Assembly: GCF_000381085.1 (NCBI RefSeq)
Contig: NZ_KB905899.1
Span: 186,001-250,000, forward strand
Origin: Thiomicrorhabdus arctica DSM 13458
GTDB taxonomy: Bacteria > Pseudomonadota > Gammaproteobacteria > Thiomicrospirales > Thiomicrospiraceae
Length of the DNA stretch: 64,000 bases
Direction of reading: 5' to 3'
The notes below the pieces were generated by a model. It was not told where the DNA came from, did no database searches, and was given only the letters and a program-made list of their open reading frames with translations. Within the stretch, counting starts at the first letter, position 1. The number at the start of each line of letters is the position of its first letter. Made by a program: the position numbers and the translations under genes. Shown in pieces: positions 5,751-55,790 of this stretch.

Positions 5751-5766
5751 TGACCAGGCCTGGTCA
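5751..5766. repeat. Dispersed palindrome copy 1 (GACCAGGCCTGGTC)
   Basis: A perfect 16-bp palindrome TGACCAGGCCTGGTCA lies 49 bases after the HDOD stop and about 137 bases before thrS. It has no longer stem. It belongs to the family of ten sites listed in this window. Confidence 0.85.
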
Positions 5767-5902
5767 AAAGTTTTTGACTTTATTCTGAATTAAATATTGA
5801 ATAATTTCGTTATTCATTTCAGCTTTAAATAAGAAAATGCTAAAATGCTCAGCTGAATTTTAACTTTACTTCTTAATTTGTATATTTCAAGAGAATAAAT
5901 CA

Positions 5903-7828
5903 ATGCCAATCATTACGTTACCTGACGGTTCAACCAAACAATTCGACGAAGCTGTTTCTGTTATGCAAGTGGCAGAAAGCATTGGGGAGGGGCTTGCAAG
6001 AGCGACGGTTGCTGGACGAGTAAATGGTGACCTAGTGGATGCGTGTGATCTCATTACCGGCGATGCTTCTTTAGAGCTTGTCACGATGCGTGATGAAGAT
6101 GGTGTACATATTATGCGTCACTCTTGTGCCCACCTGTTGGGACACGCATTAAAGCAACTCTATCCTGATGTTAAAATGGCCATCGGGCCAGTTATCGAGA
6201 ATGGTTTTTATTATGATATCGAAATGGAACACAAGGTTACGCCAGACGATTTAAAGCAAATCGAAAAACGTATGCTGGCCTTGGCGAAAACCAAATACCC
6301 TGTTGTTAAAAAGATGTTGTCGCGTGACGAAGCCGTGGCCACTTTTGAAGCACGTGGGGAAGATTATAAGCTAGAGTTGATTCGTAACTTGCCAAATGAG
6401 ACTGAATTTGGATTTTACTTTCATGAAGAGTATGTCGATATGTGTGTAGGTCCGCATTTACCGCATATGGGCTTTGTAAAGGCACTTAAGTTAACGCATG
6501 TTGCGGGTGCTTATTGGCGCGGTAATTCTGAAAATACTATGTTGCAGCGCATCTATGGTGTTGCTTTCTCCGACAAGCAAGCGCTTAAAGACTACTTGCT
6601 GATGATGGAAGAAGCTGAGAAACGTGACCACCGTAAATTAGGTAAGACACTTGATTTGTTTCATCTTGAAGATGTCTCTCCTGGCATGGCTTTCTGGCAT
6701 CCGAAAGGCACGACTTTGTATCGTGTTGTAGAGGAATATATGCGCAGTCAATTAATTGAAAATGACTATGAAGAAGTTCGCACCCCTTTGATTATGGATC
6801 GCTCATTATGGGAGAAATCAGGTCACTGGGACAAATTTAAAGATAATATGTTTACCACCGAAACCGATAATCGGGATTATGCGGTGAAGCCGATGAACTG
6901 TCCCGGGCATATTCAGGTTTATAACCGTCAACTGCACAGTTACCGTGATTTACCAATCCGTATTGCAGAGTTTGGCTTGGTGCATCGTAATGAACCATCT
7001 GGTACCCTGCATGGTTTGATGCGTGTACGTTCTTTCACCCAAGATGACGCGCATATCTTCTGTACAGAAGAGCAGATTAAAGCAGAAGTTCAAGCCTGTA
7101 TTGATTTGGTTTTTGAAACCTATGCTGATTTCGGTTTTGATAATATCGCTATTAAGTTCTCAACTCGCCCAGAGCAGCGTGTTGGCGCAGATGCTGTCTG
7201 GGACATGGCTGAGGCGGCGTTAGAAGAAACGTTGCAAGACGCTAACTTAGATTATGTGTTGCAACCGGGTGAAGGTGCCTTCTACGGCCCTAAGATTGAA
7301 TTCCAGTTGAAAGACTGCATTGGACGCGTGTGGCAGTGTGGAACAATCCAATTAGACTTCTCCATGACACAAGCAGAACGGTTAAATGCTGTCTATATCG
7401 GTAAAGATAACGAGAAGCATCATCCTGTTATGATTCACCGAGCCATTTTGGGTTCACTTGAACGTTTTGTGGGTATTTTGATTGAACATTACGAAGGTAA
7501 GTTCCCAACTTGGTTAGCACCGACGCAATGTGTAATTGCCTCAATTTCGGAAGTCCACAACGAATATGTGGCCGAAATGAGTAAAAATTTGAAAAAACAT
7601 GGCTTTAGAGTCGAATCGGACTTGAGAAATGAGAAGGTTGGGTTTAAAATTCGCGAGCATACTATGCAACGTGTTCCATATATCTTAGTGGTGGGTGATC
7701 AAGAGATGGAAAACGGGTCGGTAAATGTTCGTGCTCGTGGAGGTGAAAACCTAGGAAGCTTTACACTTGCACAACTCGTTGATTTGCTTACGACAGATAT
7801 TGGTAATTTGGGCAGAGTTAGCGCCTAA
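5903..7828 (+). CDS. thrS: Threonyl-tRNA synthetase
   Basis: 641 residues, the usual full length. An N-terminal TGS domain covers about residues 1-62. The editing domain follows, with [11 protein letters not shown] carrying the HxxxH pair. The class II catalytic core contains motif 2 around [23 protein letters not shown] and the zinc-site cysteine in MNCPGH. A C-terminal anticodon-binding domain follows. It charges tRNA-Thr in the cytosol and clears Ser-tRNA-Thr. It starts the conserved thrS-infC-rpmI-rplT order. In E. coli, ThrS represses its own translation through leader hairpins; here an inverted pair TTCAGCT/AGCTGAA (5818-5857) lies upstream, but its role is unproven. Confidence 0.97.
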
Positions 7829-7884
7829 ACCAATCGTAAACGAACAGACAAAACAAAATTTTTTAATAATTGGAGGATATTGCT

Positions 7885-8439
7885 ATCGCAATTCGAAGAG
7901 GCCGTGGAAGACCACAGCAACCTGAAGCACCAAAAGATAGAATTAATAGCGCGATTACTTCGCCTGAAGTACGCCTAGTAGCATCAGACGGGGAGCCTTT
8001 AGGCGTCGTCACCATTCAAGAAGCTTTTGATGCAGCTCAGGAAGCTGGGTTTGATTTGGTAGAAATTACCGCGAAAGCAAATCCACCAGTTTGTAAAATT
8101 ATGGATTATGGTAAGTACCTTTACCAGCAGCAAAAAAAGCAGCACGATGCTAAGAAAAATCAAAAGCAAGTGCAGCTAAAAGAAGTTAAGTTTCGCCCAG
8201 GAACTGAAGAGGGAGATTATCAGGTAAAACTACGCAACCTGGTGAAATTCCTAAATAATGGAGATCGCGTCAAGGTAACTATATGGTTCCGTGGCCGCGA
8301 GATCACTCATAAGGAACTGGGATTGAAGATGTTGGAACGTATTCGGGATGATATTCAAGAGGTTGCGACCGTTGAACAAATGCCGAAAATGGAAGGCCGT
8401 CAAATGCAAATGATGGTTGCCCCAACAAAGAAAAAGTAA
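7885..8439 (+). CDS. infC: Translation initiation factor IF-3
   Basis: About 184 residues with both IF3 domains. The N-domain contains [12 protein letters not shown], and after a Lys-rich linker the C-domain carries [18 protein letters not shown] and [11 protein letters not shown]3 binds the 30S subunit, keeps the ribosome split and proofreads the start codon. No ATG, GTG or TTG is well placed. GGAGG at 7872-7876 is followed after 8 bases by ATC at 7885, giving (M)[10 protein letters not shown]. The in-frame TTG at 7870 overlaps the Shine-Dalgarno itself, so it cannot be the start. A rare AUC (or nearby AUU) start fits known IF3 autoregulation. Confidence 0.93.
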
Positions 8440-8625
8440 GGTTTGATTTTAAACCTTGCTTAACACAACAGTCGGGACTTCTGCTTATGTAAGTAAGTAG
8501 GGGTTACTGGTGCAGCTCCTTCAGTGCTGTTCGTTGTTCCGAAGTAGATTGTAAATTTTTGCAGTCTTATTAAAAAACCAAGTGACCTTTTAAAAGGGAC
8601 CACTTAAATGCGGAGTTTCAATTAA
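8440..8625 (+). promoter_or_regulatory. infC-rpmI leader with possible L20 control hairpin
   Basis: The 186-base gap is long for this operon. Just before rpmI, 8580-8605 can fold as a bulged hairpin (AAGTGACCTTTT with AAAAGGGACCACTT). In E. coli, L20 represses rpmI-rplT translation through a structure in the same gap. The analogous role here is inferred from position only. Confidence 0.35.
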
Positions 8626-14164: not shown

Positions 14165-16693
14165 CTATTGTCCACTTAAATATAAACGCAGTTCTCGGGC
14201 GCTTTTTCTTAAGAAACCATATTGGGTGATCAGCCCGGTAAACAGAAGCAGACTAATGCCGCTGAGTAGGCTGATTATCCATAAATTGAAATCTAAGCTA
14301 ACCTCTATCTTGAGTAAATAGTGACTCATCAGACCACTGGCAATTTGCGCAAAAGTTGCGGCTAAAATACCTGCGACAGCGCCTAATAATGCAAATTCTG
14401 TTAAACCAATTTTAATGATCTCCTTGTTTTGCGCACCTAAGGTTCTTAAGAGTATCCAGCTTTGTATCCGGCTCTGCTGGCTTGCTAATGTGGCCGTAAA
14501 CAATACCCCTATGCTGGCCAATAGGGTAAACAGATAAAGTCCAGAGACGGCCCAGCTAGCTTGCTTCATGATATCCTGAATCTGCTGCATGATTTGACGA
14601 ACATCGATTAAGAGCACACCAGGAGTTCTCTTGGCGAATGCTTGGGTTAGTTCGGTTGCACGTTCGGAATGATTTTGCTTCTGACGGTCTCTTCCTTCAT
14701 TCCTATCAGCAAGCTTAGGTAGATGAAAATTGCTGATGTAGGAAAATGCTATCGGGCGTTCTGCAACGGGTTCGAGTATAAAAAAGAAATTTAACCGAAA
14801 GCTCTGCCATTCGACTTTACGTAAACTGCTCACCTGATAATCGTAGTTTTGTCCGGCAAAGTTAAAACGTAAGGTATCACCGAGTTGAATACCGAATAGT
14901 TCTGCGATACTGGCCTCTACTGATACGCTAGGCAGGGTTAATGTATCTCTACTGATCTTGGCTGTAATCACATTGTATTTTGGTAATTCGGCAAGCAAGG
15001 CGATATTCGCCTCGCGCTCGAGCATTCTACGCGCTCGGTCGCTCACTTGTTCACTGGCGATGAGTGGCTGTTGATTAATGGCGATTAAACGACCGCGTAC
15101 CATCGGTACAAGGGGTGGTGTCAGGTGTTGCTTGGCCAGTATCTTCACCACTTCTGATTCTTGATCTGGCTGAATATTCATAATAAAAGTGTTCGGTGTA
15201 TTGGCTGGCAACGAGGCTTGCCAGTTTTGCAAAAGATCTTGGCGAACAAAACTCATAAGCATTAACACAAACAACACTAAACCTACGGAGACTAATTGTA
15301 TTTTCACTAGGCCAGGTTCTTTGAGTAGATTAGAGAGTGCAATATGAAACCAGCCACGACTGTAACGTTGGAGTCGGTGGATACCTTTGAGCAGTAAACT
15401 GGCAGCCAGTAGAAGGATTAAACTGATTATGACCAGGCCTGGTAGGATCCATAACAGCGACTCTAGATCAAACATCAAACTGATTAAGCCAAGCAATAGA
15501 GCAAAACTCATTAACCAGTGAATGCTTTTGGGGTTACGCGGTACTGATTTTAAAACTTGCATTGGGGAGGTGTGTAATGCGGCTTGAAAAGCCTGCCAAG
15601 CAAAACTCCACAGTACTAAAATACCACTTAAAAACCCAGTGAGCAGAGCAGACCAAGGCGGCGTGATGATTAAGGGTTGAAAGTAGTCCGCCAATACAGG
15701 TTGGAGTAGCACCGAAAGGCTATACCCTATTAGGATTCCAATGAGACTGCTAAATAGGGCGATCCACGTGAGTTGTAGAGCAAACAGACGTTGCATCTTT
15801 GCATTATGAGCACCAAACGCACGCATTAATGCCATACTGTTTTCCCAACGGGTCAAGTAAAAACGGCTGGCGATTAAAATCGACATGCCTGCAATCAATA
15901 CCGCGGATAAAGCCGACAAGTCCAAAAATAACCAAGCCGTCTTCAAGGAATTCCCCAAATCTTCTGAAGGCGCTTGCGCCGATAAGGTTTGCCAGTGTGG
16001 ATTGTGTTGTTGCGCGATCTTTTCAGAAAAATCGGTAATCTGTTTTTCACTGCCGGCGAGACTCAATTCATAAGTTACGCGACTTCCTGGGCCAATCAAC
16101 TGAGTTCTGTTTAACGTCGCTAAAGTGATAAAAACCTGTGGCGCAAAGCTCGACATGGGATTAATAAACGTGCTGGGTTGGATGCTACCCGCTAAACCGA
16201 GCTCCAAATGTCCTAAGGTTAAACGGCTCTCTTGAGTGAGTTGCAATAGGCTAATTAGTTTGGGCTCGACCCAAGCCTCATCAGTTTGAAGAGTTTGCAG
16301 AGGTTTAAAGGTCAAGTCGTTGGTTTGACGAAGCGTACCCCTTAATGGATACGTTGCACTGATGCCTTTAAGCTGCACCAGTTGAAACTGCTTATTGCTT
16401 AAAGCCATTGTGGTAAGCGTCGTACTGTGTGCGGTTTTTAAACCGGCATCCATCGCCATTTGTGACCATTTTTGCTCGATGGGACGGCTGCTTCGGATCA
16501 CGAAGTCTGCCTTCAACGATTCTGATGCTTTGCGTAGCATGCTTTGTTGGACCGTATCGCCGAGCTGTTTGACTAATGTTACGGTGCTGCTGGCTAAGAT
16601 GACGGCAATCATGAGCCATAACCAATCACCCCGTTTCAGACTCCTGCCAAACCATTTAGAGGCTGTGAGTGCATCTCGCCAAAAAGCTAGCAT
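14165..16693 (-). CDS. ybbP: ABC transporter permease, YbbP/FtsX family
   Basis: An 842-residue inner-membrane protein. An N-terminal transmembrane helix (about 25-45) is followed by a large periplasmic domain, and then two blocks of three to four helices separated by a second periplasmic domain. This gives the ten-helix MacB/LolCE/FtsX permease pattern. E. coli YbbP is about 800 residues and sits in the same ybbA-ybbP-tesA neighbourhood. The transported substrate is unknown, and a role in moving hydrophobic or lipid-linked molecules is only suggested for this family. Its start overlaps the ybbA stop by 7 bases. A copy of the dispersed palindrome lies inside the gene at 15431. Confidence 0.85.
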   Translation of the reverse strand: MLAFWRDALTASKWFGRSLKRGDWLWLMIAVILASSTVTLVKQLGDTVQQSMLRKASESLKADFVIRSSRPIEQKWSQMAMDAGLKTAHSTTLTTMALSNKQFQLVQLKGISATYPLRGTLRQTNDLTFKPLQTLQTDEAWVEPKLISLLQLTQESRLTLGHLELGLAGSIQPSTFINPMSSFAPQVFITLATLNRTQLIGPGSRVTYELSLAGSEKQITDFSEKIAQQHNPHWQTLSAQAPSEDLGNSLKTAWLFLDLSALSAVLIAGMSILIASRFYLTRWENSMALMRAFGAHNAKMQRLFALQLTWIALFSSLIGILIGYSLSVLLQPVLADYFQPLIITPPWSALLTGFLSGILVLWSFAWQAFQAALHTSPMQVLKSVPRNPKSIHWLMSFALLLGLISLMFDLESLLWILPGLVIISLILLLAASLLLKGIHRLQRYSRGWFHIALSNLLKEPGLVKIQLVSVGLVLFVLMLMSFVRQDLLQNWQASLPANTPNTFIMNIQPDQESEVVKILAKQHLTPPLVPMVRGRLIAINQQPLIASEQVSDRARRMLEREANIALLAELPKYNVITAKISRDTLTLPSVSVEASIAELFGIQLGDTLRFNFAGQNYDYQVSSLRKVEWQSFRLNFFFILEPVAERPIAFSYISNFHLPKLADRNEGRDRQKQNHSERATELTQAFAKRTPGVLLIDVRQIMQQIQDIMKQASWAVSGLYLFTLLASIGVLFTATLASQQSRIQSWILLRTLGAQNKEIIKIGLTEFALLGAVAGILAATFAQIASGLMSHYLLKIEVSLDFNLWIISLLSGISLLLFTGLITQYGFLRKSARELRLYLSGQ
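15431..15443. repeat. Dispersed palindrome copy 2, inside a coding sequence
   Basis: GACCAGGCCTGGT within the ybbP-like gene carries the exact 12-bp core. It is the only exact copy within a gene in this window. There is no extended stem or T-run. Confidence 0.8.
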
Positions 16694-22154: not shown

Positions 22155-22184
22155 GATGAAACGACCAGGTCTGGTCGTTTCATC
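22155..22184 (-). terminator. lon terminator hairpin built on the dispersed palindrome (copy 3)
   Basis: A 14-bp perfect stem, GATGAAACGACCAG with CTGGTCGTTTCATC, around GT lies 15 bases after the lon stop. Its centre GACCAGGTCTGGTC is the dispersed palindrome with one changed base. No clean T-run follows on the minus strand. Confidence 0.7.
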
Positions 22185-26639: not shown

Positions 26640-26776
26640 GTTTAGTATTTTACTCAGGTTAAACATGCATCAAAGTATTTCGTCCAAACTTGTATTGTCT
26701 GGCAAAGTTATTGCTTAATACTTCGTATTATTTAACCTAAGCAGGTCTTACCCAAATGTATTCGCGTGGATTTAGA

Positions 26777-27754
26777 ATGAACAAGCCCGTTTTATGGTTA
26801 TTGTCGGCTGCCCTTTTTTTCTCAGGTTCGCTCGTTTTTGCCGCCGATGCTCAGAACGTCACAAAATTGACGCATGAATCAAAGCCTTTATTAGATTTAG
26901 GTGCAGAGTTAGATTCGAGCAGGCCGAAGGTCAAAAAGAGTGTTGCTCGTAAAGCGGCGCCTCATGCCCCTGTTGCAAAACAGACCTCTACAGCATCGAC
27001 TCCCGCTGTTGGCGCGATAGGAAATAATACAATTCACTGGGGTTATACCGGTGCAAGTGGTCCACAGCATTGGGGCGATTTAGCACCTGAAAATATCATG
27101 TGTAAGATAGGTAAAAATCAGTCTCCGATTGATCTACGCGATAATGCCGCAGTGGGGACCATTGGTCTCCCCCAACTTGATGTTGTCTACCAGAATGTGC
27201 CTTTAAAAGTAATTAACAATGGACATACCGTGCAAGTCAATTACCCGCTGGGCAGTTACATTAAAGTCGGTGGACATCGTTATGAATTACTACAGTTTCA
27301 TTTTCATACCCCAAGTGAACACAAGAAAGAGGGCTTTAACTATCCGATGGAAATGCATTTGGTGCATAAAGACGGCGATGGTCATTTAGCGGTGATGAGT
27401 ATTTTATTTCAGGAAGGTGAAGAGAATGAAACGTTGGATGCCCTATTAGCCAATCTGCCAAGAGACGTCGGAAAGCAGCATGTTCATAAAGATGCCAGTT
27501 TAAACCCCGCGGGCTTTATACCCGCTAATACGGATTTCTATAAATACAGCGGCTCTCTGACCACACCACCGTGTTCAGAAGGCGTGTATTGGATGGTCTT
27601 TAAACAGCCGATTCAAGCTTCGGCTGAACAGATTCAGCAGTTGAACGAATTGATGGGAGACAACTCTCGACCTTTTCAAGCCACCAATGCACGTTCGGTG
27701 TTAAAGTCTTGGGCGGATCAGTTGCAAGAACCGCCTTTGTATGAGTTTTATTAA
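26777..27754 (+). CDS. cah: Periplasmic alpha-class carbonic anhydrase
   Basis: About 325 residues. A signal peptide (LLSAALFFSGSLVFA|AD) is followed by a basic/proline-rich spacer of about 60 residues, then the alpha-carbonic anhydrase domain. The zinc ligands are visible as the His pair of LLQFHFHTPSEH and the His of EMHLVHK. QSPIDL and YSGSLTTPPCSEGV are family signatures. It interconverts CO2 and bicarbonate in the periplasm. In sulfur-oxidising autotrophs such enzymes are tied to inorganic carbon supply. I choose the ATG at 26777, which follows GGA at a good distance; 26756 is an alternative. Confidence 0.92.
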   Translation: MNKPVLWLLSAALFFSGSLVFAADAQNVTKLTHESKPLLDLGAELDSSRPKVKKSVARKAAPHAPVAKQTSTASTPAVGAIGNNTIHWGYTGASGPQHWGDLAPENIMCKIGKNQSPIDLRDNAAVGTIGLPQLDVVYQNVPLKVINNGHTVQVNYPLGSYIKVGGHRYELLQFHFHTPSEHKKEGFNYPMEMHLVHKDGDGHLAVMSILFQEGEENETLDALLANLPRDVGKQHVHKDASLNPAGFIPANTDFYKYSGSLTTPPCSEGVYWMVFKQPIQASAEQIQQLNELMGDNSRPFQATNARSVLKSWADQLQEPPLYEFY

Positions 27755-27783: not shown

Positions 27784-27811
27784 AAACTCACCAGGCCTGG
27801 TGAGTTTTTTT
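27784..27811 (+). terminator. Terminator of the carbonic anhydrase gene containing palindrome copy 4
   Basis: A perfect 24-bp palindrome, AAACTCACCAGG with CCTGGTGAGTTT, is followed by a run of T. Its centre ACCAGGCCTGGT is the dispersed palindrome. The outer arms differ from those of the other sites. Confidence 0.9.
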
Positions 27812-27848
27812 GTTTCTGGGGCTCGGTGTTTTTTAGTTGAGAATTTTT

Positions 27849-27860
27849 ACCAGGCCTGGT
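27849..27860. repeat. Dispersed palindrome copy 5
   Basis: The exact 12-bp core ACCAGGCCTGGT lies 48 bases beyond copy 4, with no matching outer arms. Two copies this close suggest the element is not simply a terminator by-product. Confidence 0.85.
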
Positions 27861-28774: not shown

Positions 28775-29656
28775 TTAACTTGCAGGTGTTTCCTCTGGAT
28801 CTTGTTGTAATAGCTGCTGAAACTTAGGGTTGTCTAGCAACGAGCTGAAGACAGGATCTTCCATCACTTCTTCTGCCATGCCTTCCACATCACTCAGGGC
28901 TTTTTCGAGATTGTAAAGCGCTTCATTTGGTTGGTTGAGTAACGCATAGGCGCCCGCCAACTGATAGAAAGCGTGCTTATTTTCGTGCTCAATGAGAAGT
29001 GCTTGATTACATAAGTTAATCGCCCATTGCGGCTCATCCATCTCCAAAGCTACATCCGCTTTATACGTCAGCGCTTCGGCATTTCTTGGATCCATCTCTA
29101 AAATCTGATCATAAATATTCAGACGATTACTGAGGATTTGTTCCTGCGCCGCTTTTAGCCATAGGCTATGTATGTCTTGATTCTCTGAGATACGTTTTTG
29201 CGCACTGTTGATGCCTTTGGTTTTTCGATTCAGTTCTTCTTCAAGTTTTTCGAGTCGCTTTTCGTATTGCGAGATGACCTTGGTGACCTTATTATCGGCC
29301 AGGTTAAGGACTTTATCTTTGATTTCACGGATGGAGTTCCAACCGACAAGAAGCAGCATCGAACTGATTCCGGCAATCAAATAGAAGAAGTAGGTCACGG
29401 TATCGGTCGCATAGCCTACAGCACGTGTGGTTGCCGTGAGTTCGCGATTGACCACCTCTTTAGTCAAATCAACATGCAAGTCGTTCATATCCACTCGCAG
29501 TTGTTTGAGTTCATCCATAACATAACGCTCTATAAAGGGGTTATACATAGGCTCGGTTAAGGTCTCAACATCTTGAGTTTCCTTGTCATGAAATTGCACC
29601 GCATAGCTAATTTGCGGCAACAGAGCAAGAATCGTAAAAAGGATTAATGTTCGCAT
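28775..29656 (-). CDS. TPR-repeat membrane protein, last gene of the ectoine operon
   Basis: 293 residues. A signal-peptide-like N-terminus (residues 1-19, ISYA|VQF) is followed by about 60 residues and a transmembrane helix near 82-103 (VTYFFYLIAGISSMLLLVGW). A charged coiled coil then spans about 110-160. Three to four TPR-like helical pairs follow, with LEMDPRNAEALTYKADVALE and AFYQLAGAYALLNQPNEALY. Its start overlaps the ask gene end by 13 bases, so it is co-translated with the ectoine pathway. Unknown function; not a standard ect gene. TPRs suggest protein-protein contacts. Confidence 0.7.
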   Translation of the reverse strand: MRTLILFTILALLPQISYAVQFHDKETQDVETLTEPMYNPFIERYVMDELKQLRVDMNDLHVDLTKEVVNRELTATTRAVGYATDTVTYFFYLIAGISSMLLLVGWNSIREIKDKVLNLADNKVTKVISQYEKRLEKLEEELNRKTKGINSAQKRISENQDIHSLWLKAAQEQILSNRLNIYDQILEMDPRNAEALTYKADVALEMDEPQWAINLCNQALLIEHENKHAFYQLAGAYALLNQPNEALYNLEKALSDVEGMAEEVMEDPVFSSLLDNPKFQQLLQQDPEETPAS

Positions 29657-31157: not shown

Positions 31158-31169
31158 AAATAATCGGGA

Positions 31170-31568: not shown

Positions 31569-32854
31569 TATTTAGCTCCTTTAGTCGTGTTAGGGGTATA
31601 TGTTTTCAGGACTTTTACAATCGCATTTTCTAAAATATCGAAGCCTTCATTAATCAACTCTTCGGTCATGACCAATGGCCCTAAGAATTTAATGAGGTCG
31701 CTCTCAGCTCCGGCGGTTTCGATGACCAGACCATCTTCGAATGCTTGTGAACAGATGGCAGAGGTAATGCTTGGATCTTTGAACTCAGCCCCCCAAATCA
31801 TACCTAAACCACGTGTTTCATTAATGATTTCTGGAAAACGTGACACTAGCTTTTGCATACGTTGTTCAACCAGTTTGGCTTTTATTTTGACTTCTTTCGA
31901 AAAACTGTCATCTGACCAGTAAGTATCAAGTGCGACGGTAGAGGCCACAAACGCCAGGTTATTACCGCGGAACGTACCAGAGTGTTCACCTGCTGTCCAT
32001 ATGTCGAGTTCAGGCTTAAGGAGTACTAACGCCATTGGATGGCCAGCGCCGATTGATTTCGATAAGGTGATGATATCTGGCTTGATACCCGCTCTTTCAA
32101 AACTAAAAAAGTCACCTGAACGACCATTTCCAACTTGAATGTCATCCACAATCATTAAAATATCAAAGTCATCACAGATTTGACGCAAGTCTTTTAGCCA
32201 TTCCTCTCCGGCGACGTTAATTCCACCTTCGGCCTGAACCGTTTCTAAAACAATCGCCGCTGGTAATTCCGTACCACTAGAGTCGTCTTCTAGAATCTTA
32301 CGCAAATACGCAATCGTATCGACTTTGTCGCCTAAATATTTATGAAAAGGCACTTGAGTGGTATAGCCTGGTACACCATAGCTTTCATCATGATAATACT
32401 TGTTACCGGTAATGCTTAAGGAACCCATTGACATGCCATGAAACCCATTAGTAAAGGACATGATTTGCTTACGACCTTTGACTTTACGGGCAATTTTAAG
32501 TGCAGCTTCAATCGCACCAGTACCTGTCGGGCCCACAAATTGCAGTTTGTAATCCAAATCACGCGGTTTAAGGATATTGTTGACAAAACTTTCCATGAAA
32601 TCACGCTTGGCAACAGTTCCCATGTCCAATGCGTGGCCGATACCATCGTTTTGCAGATAGCTAATAACGGCGTCATTTATTTTTGGGTTGTTGTGGCCAT
32701 AGTTTAAAGCACCGGCTCCGGCAAAAAAATCAATATAACGTTTGCCAGATACATCCCAAATCTCAGCCATTTTAGATTTTTCGAAAATGGTTGGGAAAGA
32801 ACGGATATAGCCACGAACTTCTGATTCATATTTGTTAAAAACTTCAAATGTCAT
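31568..32854 (-). CDS. ectB: L-2,4-diaminobutyrate transaminase
   Basis: 428 residues of PLP-dependent class III aminotransferase. RGYIRSFPTIFEKSKMAEIW is a typical EctB start. GPTGTGAIEAALKIAR binds the cofactor phosphate. MIVDDIQVGNGRSG carries the Asp that holds the pyridine ring, and TLSKSIGAGHPMAL carries the Schiff-base Lys. It converts aspartate semialdehyde and glutamate to diaminobutyrate. It lies 11 bases after ectA. Confidence 0.96.
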   Translation of the reverse strand: MTFEVFNKYESEVRGYIRSFPTIFEKSKMAEIWDVSGKRYIDFFAGAGALNYGHNNPKINDAVISYLQNDGIGHALDMGTVAKRDFMESFVNNILKPRDLDYKLQFVGPTGTGAIEAALKIARKVKGRKQIMSFTNGFHGMSMGSLSITGNKYYHDESYGVPGYTTQVPFHKYLGDKVDTIAYLRKILEDDSSGTELPAAIVLETVQAEGGINVAGEEWLKDLRQICDDFDILMIVDDIQVGNGRSGDFFSFERAGIKPDIITLSKSIGAGHPMALVLLKPELDIWTAGEHSGTFRGNNLAFVASTVALDTYWSDDSFSKEVKIKAKLVEQRMQKLVSRFPEIINETRGLGMIWGAEFKDPSITSAICSQAFEDGLVIETAGAESDLIKFLGPLVMTEELINEGFDILENAIVKVLKTYTPNTTKGAK

Positions 32855-32865
32855 TTGGTGTTCCT

Positions 32866-33438
32866 TTATAGGGTTTCTTTTATAGAAAGATAAGGTATTA
32901 ATTTTTGATTGTCAGCCATTTTTAGCGTATAGAGGTCTTCAGCCTCATGATTCTCCTCTCCAAAAAAAGCTTCACTGATGAAGGGAGTGGTCTGCAGTAA
33001 AAGGCCATGTGTTTTTGCAAACGAATTAAATAAGCTTTGTGATGCTTTGTTCGATGGACTAATGGTGCATGTGATTTCAGCCATTGCTGAATCTTTAGGC
33101 TGGTTTTTTAGGAGCGCGAGCAAAAGAGCCTTAGCCAAACCTCGGCCACGTTGGCTTTCAGCGACAACAACCTGCCATACAAAAAGGGCTTGAGGTTTAT
33201 CTGGCTGAAAGTATGCGGACAAGAAGCCAATAATCTGTCCATCCTGTTCGGCGACGACACATGTATCTGCAAAATGTGAGGCCTGTAAAAAATACAAGTA
33301 GCTCGAATTCAAATCCAAAGGAGGAGAGGATTTTATCAACTGATAAATGGCATAGCCATCTGTCAGGATTGGTTTACGAAAGCTAAGGTCGCTCAGGTTG
33401 TTAGAGTCGTTATGCTTGTTTTCGATAATGTTCTCCAT
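32866..33438 (-). CDS. ectA: L-2,4-diaminobutyrate N-gamma-acetyltransferase
   Basis: 190 residues with a GNAT fold. LSFRKPILTDGYAIYQLIKS is the EctA N-terminal pattern, and VVAESQRGRGLAKALLLALL binds acetyl-CoA. It makes N-gamma-acetyl-diaminobutyrate, the substrate of EctC. The ATG at 33436-33438 is chosen over the in-frame TTG at 33447. Ectoine is a compatible solute, so salt stress is the expected signal. No ectR-type MarR gene lies upstream. Confidence 0.95.
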   Translation of the reverse strand: MENIIENKHNDSNNLSDLSFRKPILTDGYAIYQLIKSSPPLDLNSSYLYFLQASHFADTCVVAEQDGQIIGFLSAYFQPDKPQALFVWQVVVAESQRGRGLAKALLLALLKNQPKDSAMAEITCTISPSNKASQSLFNSFAKTHGLLLQTTPFISEAFFGEENHEAEDLYTLKMADNQKLIPYLSIKETL

Positions 33439-33533
33439 AATATGCAATGCTTTTAATACTTTTAAAATTGATATTTGAAATTAACCATTCGCAGCAAATA
33501 AAGGCTGGTTATCGCGGAAAATGGGTATTTTTG

Positions 33534-34253: not shown

Positions 34254-35078
34254 TTGCGTTTTATAAAGTATTTAGTCTTAATTATTGTGGTTATTTTCTT
34301 CCAGTTGATTCGTTTACTCTTTAAAAGTACACGTAAAACCGTGGATATTGGAGTAGATGCCTATAAATCGGTGAAGCACAGTGAGAGTTTTGATGAGGCT
34401 TATAAAAATTTTACCAGTAACCAATATAGTAAGGCACGCTTAAGCATCCCTGAAGAAATTATTGCTTTAATGGCTAAGATTGCCAAAAGCGATGGCACTA
34501 TTAGTGAGCTTGAAATCGAATTTATGAGCGACACTATAAAATCGATGACCCGTGCAATGCAATCGGCTGGTTTACCGACCGTCATCATTGATTCAGCCAA
34601 AAAGAAGCTATATGACTTAGCCAACAAAGCTAAAAGTGATGAAAATCCCATTTCGTATTATTGTCAGACATTGAGTGAATCGGGATTAGAGATAAGAGCG
34701 GGCGCTTTGATGCAGATGATTAGCTTTGCTTCTTTGGATGGCCTGTCAGAAAAAACCTTAGCAATGCTGTTTGAAATCGGTCGTTTACTGACCTTTAACG
34801 ATGAGCAGATACAGCAACTGATTGATCAAGTGAATGGTCGCGGTGGTTCAGCTTATTCAAACCCGACAATGCACGAAAATCCTTATGCTGTATTGGGTTG
34901 TTCGGAGTCTGATGACTTTGCAACGATTAAAAAAGCCTATCGCAAAATGGTGAAAGAGAATCATCCTGATTTTATGCATGGCAAAGGAGTGGATGATGCT
35001 GATATCAAAGTGGCGACAGAAAAAATGCAAGATATTAATGCCGCGTTTGAAGATATCAAAAAACGTAAGGCTCAGTAA
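34254..35078 (+). CDS. djlA: DjlA-like membrane-anchored DnaJ co-chaperone
   Basis: 274 residues. An N-terminal membrane helix (about 4-24) is followed by a TerB-like helical domain (about 60-190, SDGTISELEIEFMSDTI). The C-terminal J domain starts at NPYAVLGCSESDDFATIKKA and contains the HPD motif in ENHPDFMHG. This is the DjlA order. J domains stimulate the ATPase of DnaK-type chaperones, here at the cytoplasmic membrane face. The start is a TTG preceded by AAAGG at about 9 bases; no upstream ATG is in frame. Confidence 0.82.
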   Translation: MRFIKYLVLIIVVIFFQLIRLLFKSTRKTVDIGVDAYKSVKHSESFDEAYKNFTSNQYSKARLSIPEEIIALMAKIAKSDGTISELEIEFMSDTIKSMTRAMQSAGLPTVIIDSAKKKLYDLANKAKSDENPISYYCQTLSESGLEIRAGALMQMISFASLDGLSEKTLAMLFEIGRLLTFNDEQIQQLIDQVNGRGGSAYSNPTMHENPYAVLGCSESDDFATIKKAYRKMVKENHPDFMHGKGVDDADIKVATEKMQDINAAFEDIKKRKAQ

Positions 35079-35134: not shown

Positions 35135-35147
35135 GACCAGGCCTGGT
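35135..35147. repeat. Dispersed palindrome copy 6
   Basis: GACCAGGCCTGGT lies 56 bases after the DjlA-like stop. The exact 12-bp core is present without longer arms. Confidence 0.85.
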
Positions 35148-35270: not shown

Positions 35271-35666
35271 ATGTATACCGGTAGTTGTTTGTGCGGTCAG
35301 GTTCAGTTTGAAATCAGCGGTAAAATTGACGATATTGTTTGTTGTCATTGTTCACAATGCCGAAGAGCACAAGGGAGTGCGTTTGCTACCAATGCGAACG
35401 TGAACAGCACGGATTTTAGGTTTACCCAAGGTGAAGATTTGCTCACCAAATATAAGAACAATGATAAGGGCGATAAATATTTTTGCAGTCGTTGTGGTTC
35501 GCCTATGATGGCTAAAATTCACGCAACTCCTGATAAAATAAGAATACGGCTTGGCACGATCATTGACGATATTGTGGAACGCCCCACAGCACATATCTTT
35601 GCCAGTTCAAAAGCCAATTGGGAAGAGATTTGTGGTGACTTACCTCAATTTGAAGAACGGGGTTAA
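35271..35666 (+). CDS. GFA/CENP-V family zinc-binding protein
   Basis: 131 residues with the family zinc ligands: GSCLCGQVQF, the CCHCSQCRRAQGSAF block, and a closing FCSRCGSP. The family includes the glutathione-dependent formaldehyde-activating enzyme, but most bacterial members have no proven substrate. GGAG lies upstream of the ATG. It stands alone between two large gaps. A formaldehyde role is not supported by neighbours. Confidence 0.85.
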   Translation: MYTGSCLCGQVQFEISGKIDDIVCCHCSQCRRAQGSAFATNANVNSTDFRFTQGEDLLTKYKNNDKGDKYFCSRCGSPMMAKIHATPDKIRIRLGTIIDDIVERPTAHIFASSKANWEEICGDLPQFEERG

Positions 35667-37175: not shown

Positions 37176-37565
37176 TTAGTAACCTATGTTTTCATGGTGT
37201 GCCTGTGGAATGTCTTCCGCACCAGGAAGCAAATACCACATAAGGTAATCGACTACCATCGGCACAAGTACCGTATGGTGGTTGTCCGTTGCTTGTAATT
37301 GCTGACGGATTGCTTGTTTTATTTCTGGACGATTTGACGTATCCATGATGATATCAATGTGCGAACCGAATTTTTCAAGCGCATCTTCAAAATCTGGGAA
37401 GTTTGGAATCCCACGCCCGAGCGCATCTTTAAGTAATGGATTATTTTCATTGGGCTCACTGATGCCGATAATCTCGACATGTTCTGGTTTCATGTTGGTA
37501 AACTGTTCATAAAACTTGCCACCAATACGTCCTAGGCCGACCATTACTATGGTTATTTTTCTCAT
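37176..37565 (-). CDS. Short NAD(P)-binding Rossmann protein
   Basis: 129 residues only. The N-terminus has a clear dinucleotide-binding motif, IVMVGLGRIGGKFYEQF, then a second strand ending in an acidic position (IIGISEPNE). IDIIMDTSNRPEIKQAIRQQ matches the next Rossmann unit seen in homoserine dehydrogenase and dihydrodipicolinate reductase N-domains. No catalytic domain follows, so it is a stand-alone binding domain, a sensor or a truncated enzyme. Its frame ends with a normal stop and its start follows AAGGAG, so it appears intact and expressed. Confidence 0.65.
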   Translation of the reverse strand: MRKITIVMVGLGRIGGKFYEQFTNMKPEHVEIIGISEPNENNPLLKDALGRGIPNFPDFEDALEKFGSHIDIIMDTSNRPEIKQAIRQQLQATDNHHTVLVPMVVDYLMWYLLPGAEDIPQAHHENIGY

Positions 37566-37770: not shown

Positions 37771-37784
37771 GACCAGGCCTGGTC
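37771..37784. repeat. Dispersed palindrome copy 7, between divergent genes
   Basis: Perfect GACCAGGCCTGGTC lies 106 bases before the DUF4389 gene and 205 bases before the start of the Rossmann-protein gene. Both neighbours point away from it, so it is not a 3'-end terminator. The rest of 37566-37889 holds only promoter-like A+T-rich sequence. Confidence 0.85.
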
Positions 37785-37889: not shown

Positions 37890-38210
37890 ATGAAAGATGA
37901 CACCGTAAAATCTTATAAAGATAAAAGCGTGTGGATGCGTGGCCTGTATATGCTGATGTTCATAATCTTATTGGGCGTCGCGAAGTTTGTTTCGTTTGTC
38001 GTGATACTGATTCAATTCTTAACGGTACTATTTACGGCAGAAACCAATCTTAAATTGGTTCAATTTGGTAAAAGCTTAAGTTTATACCAATATGAAATTA
38101 TGCTGTTCTTAACTTACAATAGTGATGCGCACCCATACCCCATGGGAGAGTGGCCAGAAGTAACAGAAGTAACAGAAGTTGCTGAAACTACTGAAAAAAA
38201 TAAAGGGTAA
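37890..38210 (+). CDS. DUF4389 membrane protein
   Basis: 106 residues. The core WMRGLYMLMFIILLGVAKF, two hydrophobic helices (about 16-50 across the pair) and the C-terminal SLYQYEIMLFLTYNSDA are typical of DUF4389 proteins, which have no known function. The C-terminus is a short Glu/Thr/Val repeat (EVTEVTEVAE) encoded by a tandem 9-base repeat near 38160, likely a slippage-prone tail. GGATCG lies before the ATG. Confidence 0.8.
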   Translation: MKDDTVKSYKDKSVWMRGLYMLMFIILLGVAKFVSFVVILIQFLTVLFTAETNLKLVQFGKSLSLYQYEIMLFLTYNSDAHPYPMGEWPEVTEVTEVAETTEKNKG

Positions 38211-39841: not shown

Positions 39842-40438
39842 CTATTTTGAAGTGGGATAGTAAGTGTAGTTGATGCTGACGGAATTTGATCTCTCGCCAT
39901 TTATGAAACCTAAACCAAATCGGTGCTTTTTAGAGGGCCAAATACCGATGCCAAATTTAGTTGAGGTATTGCCAGAATTGGTCTGTGTCAGCTCTGAATA
40001 GCCTAAGGCTGCTAGAAGGTCAATCGAGTCTGTTAACCAAGCCTTTACGCCCGCTGAGAGGACATAGCCATGATCATTCGCTTTTATGCATGACGTCTTA
40101 GAACAATCCTCAGCGGCAGCCCTCGCGTAGCTGGCGGTGGCAAAGCCATCCACGAACTGCATGAGCGGAATAGCCCCACCAATACCAAGCTGAGTGCTCT
40201 CTCGGGTCACATCAAGGCCGTTTACATTCTTTTCTGCGGAAAGATAAGAACCCAGCAAATAGAGGTTGCTGTGAATTTGCAGTGAAGCGTTCATACCGTA
40301 GGCATTTAACTCTTTTGATAGCCCATTTACATTGATTTGACCAAGATCCATTCCAAAGGATGTATAGCTAAAGTTAGTGGCATTGGCTACGTTTGCAAAC
40401 AATGCAAGAATGGTTAAAGGAATGAGTTTTTTTAGCAT
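39842..40438 (-). CDS. Outer-membrane beta-barrel protein
   Basis: 198 residues. A signal peptide ends near residue 20 (VANA|TNF). The rest alternates in the manner of amphipathic strands with Gly and aromatic girdle residues (YGMNASLQIHSNLYLLGSYL, STKFGIGIWPSKKHRFGLGF) and ends SVSINYTYYP. Two cysteines (AAEDCSKTSCIK) could form a disulfide in a loop. This suits a small 8-strand barrel of the OmpA-like/PF13505 type. Ligand unknown. Confidence 0.7.
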   Translation of the reverse strand: MLKKLIPLTILALFANVANATNFSYTSFGMDLGQINVNGLSKELNAYGMNASLQIHSNLYLLGSYLSAEKNVNGLDVTRESTQLGIGGAIPLMQFVDGFATASYARAAAEDCSKTSCIKANDHGYVLSAGVKAWLTDSIDLLAALGYSELTQTNSGNTSTKFGIGIWPSKKHRFGLGFINGERSNSVSINYTYYPTSK

Positions 40439-41030
40439 AAGCTATGGCTCCAGAGGCACTTGATTTGAATGCAAGGGGGTTACTCTATTACGATGATTCA
40501 TCGTATTTAAGACTGTTATGAATAAATTATCAATTCTCTAATGAAACTAATTGGTTTTCAAACGTTTTTTACTGCATAGGGTTGATCTCACCGATGTTGG
40601 TTTATATTACTCTGGACTCGCGAGAAAAAAGGCCACGATTGAACAATGAGATGATCATTCATACGCATAAGCATTTTAGACCTATTTAGGAAATGATTGA
40701 ATCAAATAAGACGAAATAATAATTTGTCCATGGTTTGTCCACTTGAGAGTGCTGTTCACCATGGATGCGTGAATAAGCTCTTACTGAAAAAGGCATTAAA
40801 CTCGGTAAAATGTCAGCTTAGACGTTCGTTTAGAAAAGATTGAAATTTGGGTGATATTCCTAAAACAGGGTCTCTAAAGAGAGTTCAAAAAGAAAATTTT
40901 GCTTACCAGATCATTGTTTTCGGCAGGGTCAATATAGAAACTTGGAATTGACGTTAATTTAACAAATTGGTTAAGGCCGTCTCTTTTAACCAGGCCTGGG
41001 CAGATTGTTTAAGGAGGCCTTATTCCCCCC
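40439..41030. other. Intergenic region with degenerate palindrome copy 8
   Basis: 592 bases without a convincing gene. ACCAGGCCTGGG at 40989-41000 matches the dispersed core in 11 of 12 bases and lies just beyond the thioesterase stop. CCATGG-containing short inverted pieces near 40729-40762 look incidental. Confidence 0.55.
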
Positions 41031-41462
41031 TTAATTAAGATAGGGAGCAATAAAGGCTTCAGGGATGGGTTTGGGGCGCAGATTTTTTAAATCAACACAC
41101 ACAAACTCGGTGGTGGCGGTGAAGACAGTCAACCCATCACCTACTCGAATAATCTGATAATGACGTTCTCTTACACAACAGCCTTTTTGTTCCCCTAACC
41201 AAGTGCCAATCAACAGTTCATCATCTAAATAACTCCCTGCATGGTAAAACATTCGATGTTCTTTAATCACCATAATTCGATTGAGTCGTTTTTGGGTATC
41301 GTGATTGATACCGACCGATTGGCTATGCAACCAGGCCACTTGTTCCATCCAAGTTAGATAGGTTTTATTGTTGACGTGTTGTAGAAAATCCAACTCATCG
41401 ACTTGCACGGTATGGCCATGAATAAAAGGCTGGGACGATTGCCAATGCTGTTGCCGTTTCAT
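41031..41462 (-). CDS. Acyl-CoA thioesterase, 4HBT/hot-dog family
   Basis: 143 residues of the hot-dog fold. VDELDFLQHVNNKTYLTWME matches the 4HBT active-site segment, with the Asp and HVNN region placed as in YbgC-like enzymes. The C-terminal RPKPIPEAF is also common in the family. It would hydrolyse an acyl-CoA thioester in the cytosol. The substrate cannot be told from sequence. It diverges from aroC. Confidence 0.82.
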   Translation of the reverse strand: MKRQQHWQSSQPFIHGHTVQVDELDFLQHVNNKTYLTWMEQVAWLHSQSVGINHDTQKRLNRIMVIKEHRMFYHAGSYLDDELLIGTWLGEQKGCCVRERHYQIIRVGDGLTVFTATTEFVCVDLKNLRPKPIPEAFIAPYLN

Positions 41463-50404: not shown

Positions 50405-50722
50405 ATGTCTAAATTTGACAATGTCACAGTATTAAAAGAAGCGTCTGTCTATTTTGATGGCAAAGTCACCAGTCGAACAATTCTGTTTGCTGACGGTTCT
50501 AAGAAAACGTTAGGCATTATGATGCCGGGTGAGTATAAATTTGGCACTGAGTTAGCTGAAAACATGGAAATGCATTCTGGTGATGTCGAAGTGTTATTGC
50601 CCGGTGAAACCGAGTGGAAAGCGATTCCAAATGGCACAAGTTTTTATGTCCCCGCGAACTCTAAGTTTGATATTAACGTTAAGCACATTGCAGATTACTG
50701 CTGCTCATATCTTACGGAATAA
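50405..50722 (+). CDS. ppnP: Pyrimidine/purine nucleoside phosphorylase
   Basis: 105 residues, a cupin formerly DUF1255/Yai[35 protein letters not shown] and the C-terminal IADYCCSYL are diagnostic. It phosphorolyses several nucleosides to base and ribose-1-phosphate in the cytosol. GGG-rich Shine-Dalgarno (AAAGGGAAA) precedes the ATG. A strong terminator follows. Confidence 0.92.
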
Positions 50723-50765: not shown

Positions 50766-50801
50766 AACCCAATTGACCAGGCCTGGTCAATTGGGTTTTT
50801 T
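50766..50801 (+). terminator. ppnP terminator built on palindrome copy 9
   Basis: A perfect 32-bp palindrome, 16-base arms AACCCAATTGACCAGG and CCTGGTCAATTGGGTT, is followed by T. GACCAGGCCTGGTC (50775-50788) is at its exact centre. The remaining gap to 51052 shows nothing more. Confidence 0.92.
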
Positions 50802-51051
50802 AATGGATGTCATGCTGTCATAGTAGGCTGAAGTCCAAATAAAATTAGGTTTTTTCTTGCAAGGAAAGTAAAGACTTATTCAAAATCATGCCCTTTGTTG
50901 TCTCAACCGATCTTTGTGACAAAAGCTTCTTTAGAACACATTCGCCAAGTTGTTTCAATAAAAAAGCCCTAAAGTTAATCCCCATTGTTTGCTGCAGAGC
51001 AACGGTTCATAACCTGTACTTTTAGTTGGTTGATAAACGGCGGTTGTATTT

Positions 51052-51639
51052 TTATGGCTTTTTTGCAATGACCTGAATCACCGCGCCAGTACCCGTGTGA
51101 TGCGTACCTTCAACGACATCACGTTCAATTTCTTGAATAAGAGTAAACTGTAAGCCGTTAAGTTCTTCAGTTAATTGTACTGTATTCATGGTCATATCTG
51201 CCGTTGTGGGACCACCAGTCTTATAGTTTAATTGGTCTGGAGTATAGGCTTCTAACAACATGACACCATCCTGTTTAAGACTGGTAACGACTTTCTGATG
51301 TAAGGCTCGTCTGATATTAACCGGTAGGTGGCAAAAGATAGAGACGATTCCGTCCCATTTCGCTTCGCCCAGTTCGTAATCGGCTAAATCGGCATGAATG
51401 AATTCTATAGAAACCTGGTTTTCTTCTGCCCATTTGCGAGCTTTTTGGAGGCCTACTGCAGAACCATCAACAGCGGTCACGGAGTATCCTTGTTTCGCAA
51501 GAAAGACTGCATTTCGTCCTTCTCCTTCGGCTAAACAAAGAATCTTACCTTTGGGGAGAAGGTTAAAATTTTGTGTTAAAAATTCGTTAGGTTTTGTGCC
51601 ATAAATGTAATTTGGTGCACTGTATTTTTCATCCCACAT
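51052..51639 (-). CDS. Class I SAM-dependent methyltransferase, TehB-like
   Basis: 195 residues. MWDEKYSAPNYIYGTKPNEF is the common start of a TehB/thiopurine-like group. Motif I is ILCLAEGEGRNAVFLA and motif II ends SVTAVDGSA. An acidic post-I residue binds the SAM ribose. The substrate is unknown; homologues are linked to tellurite or thiol methylation without firm proof. It stands alone. Confidence 0.82.
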   Translation of the reverse strand: MWDEKYSAPNYIYGTKPNEFLTQNFNLLPKGKILCLAEGEGRNAVFLAKQGYSVTAVDGSAVGLQKARKWAEENQVSIEFIHADLADYELGEAKWDGIVSIFCHLPVNIRRALHQKVVTSLKQDGVMLLEAYTPDQLNYKTGGPTTADMTMNTVQLTEELNGLQFTLIQEIERDVVEGTHHTGTGAVIQVIAKKP

Positions 51640-54170: not shown

Positions 54171-54196
54171 GACCTCTGTTACTCATGTTGATTTAT

Positions 54197-54479: not shown

Positions 54480-54495
54480 GACAACGTACGTTGTC
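54480..54495. promoter_or_regulatory. 16-bp palindrome upstream of the PilZ-like gene
   Basis: GACAACGTACGTTGTC is a perfect palindrome 37 bases before the GTG start at 54533. It is a likely repressor or activator site. Further up, TAAA (54412-54415) and GCAGGTAG (54432-54439) resemble the sigma-28 pattern but with a 16-base spacer. The rest of 54221-54479 shows nothing clear. Confidence 0.5.
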
Positions 54496-54532
54496 GATCA
54501 TGATGATTTCCTATTCATTACGGAGTTATGGA

Positions 54533-55453
54533 GTGCACAAAGAGCAAAGAGAATTTTTTAGATTTGATGTTTCGCTCCCCGTCTATTTTGAGCCAATGGG
54601 GTCTTCGGGTGCCTGTTTACAGGTGGATAAAACCCAATTAATCGAACCCCGTGAAGCAGAGCGTTTGGATGCAGCAAATAGTCAATTAGAGTCTCTCTTT
54701 GAGGATGAGGTTCATCTTCAAAATGGGGGGGTGCAACTGTTTGATGAGTTTAACCAGAAATTGGCATTTATGGCTTGGTTGGTAGAATCTATTGTTGAAG
54801 GTAAAAATCCAACCGCGCATCCAGAATTTCAGCAAAAAAAACATGAGCAAGCCCAATACAAACGCCCAGAAGGTAAAGGGTCATCGAAAATGATTCCGTT
54901 GCTACAAGCATTTTATCTTAGTATTGATAATGCAATTTTAGAATGTGTAGAGGTGGTTGATAAAAGTATCAGTGGCCAGGTCTTTATGTTTCACATGCCC
55001 ATAGGCTCTCTTTTCAGCAGTCAGGATTATATTGCGAATTTGGAGGTCATCGCCAAACAAGGAAACTGGCTGGCGAGTGTGATTGAAAAGCTTATTTTTA
55101 AATTTAATTATTACGAAACGCTTTTAAATAAACTTAAGCGAGCCTATCAAAACTTATCTGAATATGAGAAATGGCCAGTTGAACGCATCAATTTAGCCGC
55201 GGGTGGATTCTCACTCATGATGAAGGAAGACTATCAGGTAGGGGAAACGCTCTGTGCTTTATTTCTAATGGACGAGCAGTTTGTATTTTCCCAAGCAGAG
55301 TGTGTTTTTGTGGAAAATAATAGGACTGGCAACACACCTGTCAGAGATGGCAAGCGGACGGCATTTAAGTTCACGTGCATCGCCGCCGAAGATGAAGCAC
55401 ACATTGTGCGTTATTTAATGAGTAAAGAGTTAGAGTTAAGATCCCTTGAGTAA
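54533..55453 (+). CDS. PilZ-like domain protein
   Basis: About 306 residues from the GTG at 54533, which follows GGAG by 7 bases. The N-terminal REFFRFDVSLPVYFEP resembles the RxxxR-containing strand of PilZ-type domains. A helical middle (about 50-210) separates it from a C-terminal PilZ-like barrel, with ERINLAAGGFSLMM where canonical PilZ has [D/N]xSxxG. The Ser is replaced by Ala, so c-di-GMP binding may be weak or lost. Similar proteins occur in motility and surface regulation. The BFD-like gene follows after 14 bases. Confidence 0.6.
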   Translation: MHKEQREFFRFDVSLPVYFEPMGSSGACLQVDKTQLIEPREAERLDAANSQLESLFEDEVHLQNGGVQLFDEFNQKLAFMAWLVESIVEGKNPTAHPEFQQKKHEQAQYKRPEGKGSSKMIPLLQAFYLSIDNAILECVEVVDKSISGQVFMFHMPIGSLFSSQDYIANLEVIAKQGNWLASVIEKLIFKFNYYETLLNKLKRAYQNLSEYEKWPVERINLAAGGFSLMMKEDYQVGETLCALFLMDEQFVFSQAECVFVENNRTGNTPVRDGKRTAFKFTCIAAEDEAHIVRYLMSKELELRSLE

Positions 55454-55467
55454 GGTGAGAAAGAGTC

Positions 55468-55704
55468 ATGTCAACTCATAAAAAGCGTCAAGGGCAGTAT
55501 AATGCCATCCCCCTTAAGCAAGATAGGCAACAAATCTGTGTTTGTTATGATGTTTATTCCGACGAAATTATAGAGGCCATCCAAAAGGGTGCTGACAGTG
55601 TCGAGAAGGTCAGTGATCTCACTTATTCTTGTCAGGGGTGCGGCAGTTGCCGTTTTAAAATAGAGGGCTTACTGCAAGGCATCGTTTGCGTAAGCCGTGA
55701 GTAA
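55468..55704 (+). CDS. BFD-like [2Fe-2S]-binding protein
   Basis: 78 residues. ICVCYDVYSDEIIEAIQKGA and CQGCGSCRFKIEGLL give the C-x-C...C-x-x-C cysteine set of the BFD-like [2Fe-2S] domain. The closest functional model is bacterioferritin-associated ferredoxin, which reduces stored iron, but no bacterioferritin gene is nearby. The N-terminal KKRQGQYNAIPLKQDRQQ is a short basic extension. It likely shares a transcript with the PilZ-like gene and precedes the manganese transporter on the opposite strand. Confidence 0.82.
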   Translation: MSTHKKRQGQYNAIPLKQDRQQICVCYDVYSDEIIEAIQKGADSVEKVSDLTYSCQGCGSCRFKIEGLLQGIVCVSRE

Positions 55705-55758
55705 ACTCGAGTGATTTAAACGATATCAATTTATGTGGTTTACGGAATCTTATGTCGA

Positions 55759-55790
55759 TTTAATAATGACCAGGCCTGGTCATTATTAAA
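55759..55790. terminator. Bidirectional terminator built on palindrome copy 10
   Basis: A perfect 32-bp palindrome, arms TTTAATAATGACCAGG and CCTGGTCATTATTAAA, lies between convergent genes. GACCAGGCCTGGTC (55768-55781) is at its exact centre. Its outer arms are unrelated to those of the ppnP terminator. Confidence 0.85.

Follow-up and report, generated by a model that had tools for sequence, protein, structure and literature searches.

A 12-bp palindrome, ACCAGGCCTGGT, occurs ten times in exact or one-mismatch form within a 64,000-nucleotide stretch of the genome of Thiomicrorhabdus arctica DSM 13458 (hereafter 'the window'; contig NZ_KB905899.1, positions 186,001 to 250,000, or G000:C1:186001-250000 in our numbering, where G000 is the 2.55 Mb window genome). 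These repeats are probably uptake-signal sequences that have been spread by biased natural transformation, and they would extend such signals to a third family of bacteria, with a commonest dialect that is palindromic. We favour this reading because an exact core is set in looser flanks, the copies prefer unconstrained DNA, dialects replace one another along the tree, and A/T tracts lie one helical turn away, all of which are marks of known uptake signals.

The ten coordinates given in the original prediction (eight exact copies and two one-base variants) all match, and 100 shuffles of the window yielded a mean of 0.04 copies and a maximum of one. Counting across all 2,552,883 bases of the genome returned 333 exact copies and none of the reversed-string control, compared with about 0.2 copies expected when the second-order Markov figure of ~0.03 per 400 kb is scaled to the genome. 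The proposal of a genome-wide recognition sequence is thus supported, as the count is far above the Markov expectation and copies occur well beyond the window. Maximum-order Markov scores are uninformative for the core because its internal 11-mers are almost unique to it. In a 464-kb sample composed of the window and 20 further stretches of the same genome, ACCAGGCCTGGT is the commonest 12-mer with 60 exact copies, whereas its single-mismatch variants sum to 29 and none of these variants exceeds seven.

Our sample of the order to which the strain belongs comprised 62 genomes, representing seven genera of one family. Among these, 27 genomes within four genera hold 84 to 718 exact copies, and the other 35 hold 0 to 38. 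When 369 gammaproteobacterial genomes were drawn, the 365 outside the order were found to hold at most five copies each. Enrichment of ACCAGGCCTGGT is therefore confined to this order among the genomes counted, and both chance and confinement to the window were rejected by the shuffles and by the genomic, order-wide and gammaproteobacterial counts. Among viral contigs of uncertain host, 39 stretches carry one motif copy each, and these are not informative.

The original prediction held that the sites share only the core and that their flanks differ. This is not quite right, as a weak symmetric consensus is present in the 120 flanks of the 60 sampled sites, and the palindrome forms the inner part of a symmetric motif of ~24 bp, AAANYG-ACCAGGCCTGGT-CRNTTT. 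Counting outward from the core, position +1 is C at a frequency of 0.57, position +2 is A or G at 0.97, and positions +4 to +6 are T at 0.68, 0.74 and 0.53. A second rise in A/T content (0.084 ± 0.014 for G000 and its relative G001 pooled) spans positions +16 to +21, an interval picked after the profile was seen, and no such rise is evident in G006 (-0.009 ± 0.027).

The core and its flanks together show two-fold symmetry over 24 bp, which also would be expected of sites for a homodimeric cytosolic DNA-binding protein, such as a nucleoid-associated protein, a segregation factor or a global regulator, that binds hundreds of dispersed sites and whose own changes are recorded as dialects. This is the main rival to an uptake signal, and the dispersal of the copies and their intergenic preference agree with it. 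It accounts for the symmetry, but not for two dialects that are asymmetric and carry a tract on one side. Furthermore, regulatory sites usually tolerate mismatches, whereas exact copies here are about twice as common as single-mismatch copies; one copy in three is located within a gene; and many close relatives have no motif that we could find. On balance, we regard a dimeric protein of this kind as an unlikely explanation for the repeats.

The locations of the copies relative to genes are consistent with a preference for DNA that is free to change. A simple caller of open reading frames (ORFs) assigned 398 genes to the 464-kb sample (coding fraction 0.864), and 41 of the 60 copies fall between them (binomial p = 4e-22, with sites treated as independent, which they are not). 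These gene calls are rough, and 41 may be slightly high if genes were missed, as is possible at 13.6-15.9 kb of stretch L036. A retrained gene caller, applied to 440 kb outside the window, placed 36 of 56 copies between genes. In other genomes of the order with coding fractions of 0.88-0.93, the copies located within genes number 25 of 58 (G001), 23 of 37 (G006), 9 of 16 (G002), 2 of 9 (G026), 9 of 17 (G027), 5 of 12 (G038), 1 of 9 (G039) and 3 of 9 (G044). The 19 in-gene cores of G000 are read as QAW (12 copies), PGLV (six) or TRPG (one).

A part of the intergenic copies is terminator-like. In G000, 14 copies occur in the 13.2 kb of intergenic DNA between convergent genes, compared with four in the 13.1 kb between divergent genes (p = 0.03). 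Base pairing extends outward from the core into the flanks of intergenic copies by a mean of 3.20 pairs, versus 1.59 when left and right flanks are swapped among sites (largest permuted value 2.41), and this excess is greater in convergent regions (5.00 versus 2.11). Copies within genes show no comparable extension (1.16 versus 1.12), and pairing in G001 is likewise above its permuted value (2.29 versus 1.16). These values are what would be anticipated if the motif had been selected solely for its place at the tip of intrinsic terminator hairpins. However, the extension is shorter than five pairs in 28 of the 41 intergenic copies, the 19 copies in genes lack extension, a hairpin with a GGCC apex can form without any fixed sequence, and some dialects are not palindromic. 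Selection for termination alone is thus very improbable as the origin of the motif.

Some relatives without ACCAGGCCTGGT carry motifs with the same layout, namely ACCGGCCGGT, AACAGGCCGGGT, AACAGGCCTGTT and CCYARCCTGGYAGATTTT. These were sought in samples of genomes that hold few or no copies of the palindrome, and only copies with distinct flanks were counted. The dialect of G006, aaa.tttACCGGCCGGTaaa.ttt, is represented by 37 copies in 100 kb, and that of G002, AAaCTcAACAGGCCGGGT, by 16 copies in 100 kb. Words resembling AACAGGCCTGTT are found in G026, G027 and, weakly, G003, whereas G038, G039 and G044 share the form CCC-A-R-CCTGGYAGATTTT (12 copies in 140 kb, and nine and ten in 60 kb, respectively). 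Across whole genomes, the degenerate form AMCMGGCCKGKT yields 538 matches in G002, 305 in G016, 298 in G027, 204 in G026 and 96 in G003, versus one to four for its reversed control in the same five genomes. In five dialects a T or A tract is located ~9-12 bp from the core centre. The symmetric dialects have such a tract to either side of the core, whereas those of G002 and of G038, G039 and G044 have it on one side only. The dialects ACCAGGCCTGGT and ACCGGCCGGT are palindromic, whereas AACAGGCCGGGT and CCYARCCTGGYAGAT are not.

This diversity also bears on the original prediction's option of a site for a methylating protein, taken here to mean that the repeats are methylation or restriction-related sites (CCWGG or GGCC) selected for the mark that they carry. 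The core indeed contains two abutting CCWGG sites around GGCC, as had been claimed, and outside the cores AGGCCT is still frequent (102 occurrences in 464 kb). However, a methylase is disfavoured because the dialects have no short site in common: CCYARCCTGGYAGAT is without GGCC and ACCGGCCGGT is without CCWGG. The enriched word, moreover, is an exact 12-mer with tracts lying outside of it. There is consequently little to recommend selection for a methylation mark. Among the options initially offered, the best match is the DNA-uptake signal, given that the motifs of relatives are dialects specific to their clades and combine a core with an A/T tract.

The dialects follow a tree built from PheT proteins. 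This tree has 46 rows, leaving out 16 of the 62 genomes, and the five dialect labels require eight changes on it, compared with 21.7 when labels are shuffled (none of 200 shuffles was as low). One side of a single branch accounts for CCYARCCTGGYAGAT, two changes account for AACAGGCCKGKT, and six account for ACCAGGCCTGGT, which is present in deep branches. Certain labels are weak, namely those of G021 (71 degenerate matches, including 38 exact ones) and G013 (59 matches, labelled 'none'), and the label 'none' was assigned from short samples or low counts. The window's PheT protein shares 92% identity with its counterpart in Thiomicrorhabdus metagenome-assembled genome (MAG) NP51 and 73-77% with those of other Thiomicrorhabdus loci.

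Screens of k-mers and of gapped dyads revealed no clearly outstanding further dialect, either in 40-80 kb from each of G004, G008, G009, G010, G020, G022, G030, G031 and G035 or in ~111 kb pooled from a clade of MAGs, although rare dialects could be missed. Other genomes without a found dialect (e.g. G032, G034, G045 and G047-G051) were sampled in fragments or left out of this search. Within the MAG clade (L009, L010, L013, L015, L019, L098 and L099), the dyad AATGnnnnCATT occurs 19 times in 111 kb versus 4.1 expected, and perhaps is a weak, more degenerate dialect. Three further sets of repeated words were encountered in the sampled sequences. Words such as CGCGTGGATTGAAAC and CGGGGGGCGCGAC have ~72 copies in L054-L061 (G001:C1:1-160000) and appear CRISPR-like by eye. 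Words with 26-55 copies each in L066-L069 (G038:C1:1-80000), for example CAGACCTAGCCG and CGGATGCCG, belong to a long repeat array or a repetitive gene. In L020, from Thiomicrorhabdus sp. Milos-T2, GAGACCTTTGCA and AGCTAGCTATTC each occur eight times in 22 kb.

Comparisons between related genomes reveal turnover of individual copies. The window aligns with locus L227 at 86% identity over 15.6 kb, and within this alignment an in-gene copy is exact in both sequences (window 15432..15443, read as PGLV within ORF 14165-16693 on the minus strand). A second copy in the same ORF is exact in L227, whereas the window carries the two-mismatch relative ACTAGGCCAGGT at 15306..15317. Both versions encode EPGLV, and therefore the difference consists of two synonymous changes. 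The exact intergenic core at 5753..5764, between ORFs 4815-5702 and 5903-7828 (both on the plus strand), is unmatched in the part of L227 that aligns. The genomes G005, G007 and G012 hold several exact copies in corresponding positions, together with others that are missing or have one or two altered bases, while G011 and G029 have no copy in common within their aligned part. Insertion as a mobile repeat was rejected in general for the listed copies because their flanks are dissimilar and a synonymous difference is seen in place. There are a few exceptions with similar flanks. The cores at 14935 and 15609 of L036 have a nearly identical left flank and therefore were probably duplicated along with their surroundings, and further copies at 3198, 5869 and 14542 of L052 have mutually similar flanks.

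If these repeats are uptake signals, a receptor on the surface of an uptake pilus would bind the core together with an A/T tract that lies 9-12 bp, or about one helical turn, away from the core centre, such that DNA bearing the motif would be taken up and recombined more often than other DNA. Such a bias, repeated over a long period, could build up and sharpen copies wherever sequence can change, which would include intergenic DNA and tolerant reading frames. Drift in the specificity of the receptor might then be followed by the whole set of copies, giving rise to clade-specific dialects. In the window species, both half-sites match, so that the motif is palindromic and a single copy can seed a hairpin, and some intergenic copies have in this manner become terminator-like hairpins.

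Many of these features have parallels in established systems. The Pasteurellaceae and the Neisseriaceae are described as the only families for which motif-based selection of DNA at the binding step is known (PMC12616744, published in 2025). The uptake signal sequences (USS) of Pasteurellaceae, which occur as the Hin type, AAGTGCGGT, and the Apl type, ACAAGCGGT, resemble the repeats described herein in having a short exact core, A/T-rich segments approximately one helical turn away, two types that follow subclades, and more perfect than singly mismatched copies, a pattern that marks a genome's own USS type (PMC1626085). The half-site GGTCRNTTT also resembles the extended USS, AAAGTGCGGTCAATTTT (PMC12616744), a resemblance that may have arisen by chance. 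Among flanks directly after the core, an exact CAATTT is present in three of 128 (G000) and five of 116 (G001), and CANTTT in 14 and six, respectively. Unlike USS, the motif belongs to a different family of bacteria and is palindromic with tracts on both sides in its commonest dialect.

The DNA uptake sequences (DUS) of Neisseriaceae likewise exist as dialects that follow the core-genome tree and are associated with terminators (PMC3630211, PMC1852404), but they are unrelated in sequence. In addition, DUS terminators are inverted pairs, and USS also need such a pair, whereas a single copy of the motif in its palindromic form is enough to seed a terminator hairpin. A further parallel is HIP1 (GCGATCGC), a highly iterated palindrome of cyanobacteria that is similarly of uncertain function. 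HIP1 has been tied to methylases (PMC6604393), whereas the repeats described here differ from it in sequence, include non-palindromic dialects and have no methylase site in common. The literature searched, which covered few subscription journals, contained no report of uptake sequences or of the exact 12-mer in this order, and for CCAGGCCTGG no publication on this subject was evident by title among the matches listed. A third family with five dialects, switches along the tree and clades without a found motif would, if real, provide a natural experiment in the origin, change and loss of uptake specificity.

Known receptors specific for such motifs are ComP in Neisseriaceae and, as has been proposed, ComN in Pasteurellaceae. 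General components of the uptake machinery are widespread in the order, with comEC (PF03772) in 56 of the 62 genomes and comEA (TIGR00426, E up to 0.001) in 53, including 40 over the model cut-off. We classed 36 genomes as dialect-bearing: 27 by their ACCAGGCCTGGT counts, five (G002, G003, G016, G026 and G027) by degenerate counts, and four (G006, G038, G039 and G044) by sampling. Of these, 34 carry comEC and 35 carry comEA. G048-G051 have neither a comEA match nor the motif. The comEC ORF of the window genome (L047 16181-18811; match at G000:C1 347030-347842) itself contains two exact cores, at L047 16659 and 17925.

Several observations count against the repeats being uptake signals. Both comEC (22 of 26) and comEA (18 of 26) are also common in genomes without a found dialect, and therefore the machinery fits but does not discriminate; neither gene, nor a match to the PilQ model, clearly separates dialect-bearing from dialect-free genomes. 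No genome among the 62 has a PilQ match over the cut-off, though 57 have some match, and only one of 14 controls exceeds it. The ComP_DUS model, in a further departure from the Neisseriaceae, also has no match over its cut-off among the 62 genomes (one sub-threshold match, in G031), nor among the 14 controls; ComN was not searched. A 311-amino-acid prepilin (G000:C3) that we considered as a receptor has matches in 56 of the 62 genomes, at full length in motif-rich and motif-free genomes alike. This candidate is not convincing because only its N-terminal part is matched in motif-rich G001, G007, G011, G012 and G029. G000 carries ~0.13 copies of the motif per kb, and the highest density, that of G057, is ~0.34 per kb (using a rounded genome size). 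These values are about an eighth to a third of one per kb, whereas USS and DUS each occur at ~1 per kb (PMC1626085). Known uptake sequences (DUESs) are described as not being palindromes (PMC1939737), which holds here for AACAGGCCGGGT and CCYARCCTGGYAGAT but not for ACCAGGCCTGGT and ACCGGCCGGT. Finally, the copies are not spaced more evenly than would be expected at random, as judged from two G000 blocks and one G001 block, and the coupling of copies to hairpins is absent from G006 (pairing of 1.19 versus 1.02 permuted).

One candidate for the apparatus that would read a putative uptake signal is a pilus of the mannose-sensitive haemagglutinin (MSHA) type. G000 carries an MSHA-pilus-like operon with an MshL match over the cut-off (263.8 versus 250.2), as well as four pseudopilins resembling those of type II secretion systems, along with three more prepilins that exceed the N_methyl cut-off. 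We tentatively suggest that in this family, whose 62 genomes have no PilQ match over the cut-off, such a pilus might read a two-headed palindromic signal, with its pilin recognizing a half-site related to the Pasteurellaceae USS; the two codes would then either share descent or have converged on a core-plus-tract geometry. This more specific scheme is doubtful. A prepilin cluster also is located at L225 7109-12916 (G000:C3), where two long prepilins (320 and 452 amino acids) share a PCPD segment, and related matches number up to eight per genome in the order.

The remaining copies in the window illustrate the contexts in which the motif is found. A one-mismatch core, ACCAGGTCTGGT, is located at 22164..22175 and has 9-bp inverted flanks, GATGAAACG and CGTTTCATC. 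A terminator-like hairpin at 27784..27813 has at its apex the exact core 27790-27801, which lies 35 bases after ORF 26756-27754 (plus strand); the hairpin has six more paired bases and is followed by a T run. The next exact core, also intergenic, is at 27849..27860, which is 59 bases after the preceding copy. Exact cores also are present at 35136..35147, between plus-strand ORFs 34254-35078 and 35271-35666, and at 37772..37783, between the divergent ORFs 37176-37565 (minus) and 37890-38210 (plus). The second one-mismatch core, ACCAGGCCTGGG, resides at 40989..41000 between minus-strand ORFs 39842-40438 and 41031-41462. Two further hairpins separate convergent genes. The first, at 50766..50803 between ORFs 50405-50722 (plus) and 51052-51639 (minus), is terminator-like, with the exact core 50776-50787 at its apex, ten more paired bases and a T run. 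The second, at 55758..55791 between ORFs 54491-55453 (plus) and 55808-56698 (minus), has the exact core 55769-55780 at its apex and 11 more paired bases.

Three other features were noted in the window. A riboswitch for thiamin pyrophosphate (TPP) is located at 4578-4685 on the minus strand (75.2 bits), upstream of ORF 2383-4470 (minus), whose product by eye looks like a TonB-dependent outer-membrane receptor and is possibly thiamin-controlled. Four ORFs at 29644-33447 (minus) resemble, again by eye, an ectoine cluster with an aspartokinase. Lastly, a perfect 21-base tandem duplication at 377-419 directly precedes ORF 453-1397.

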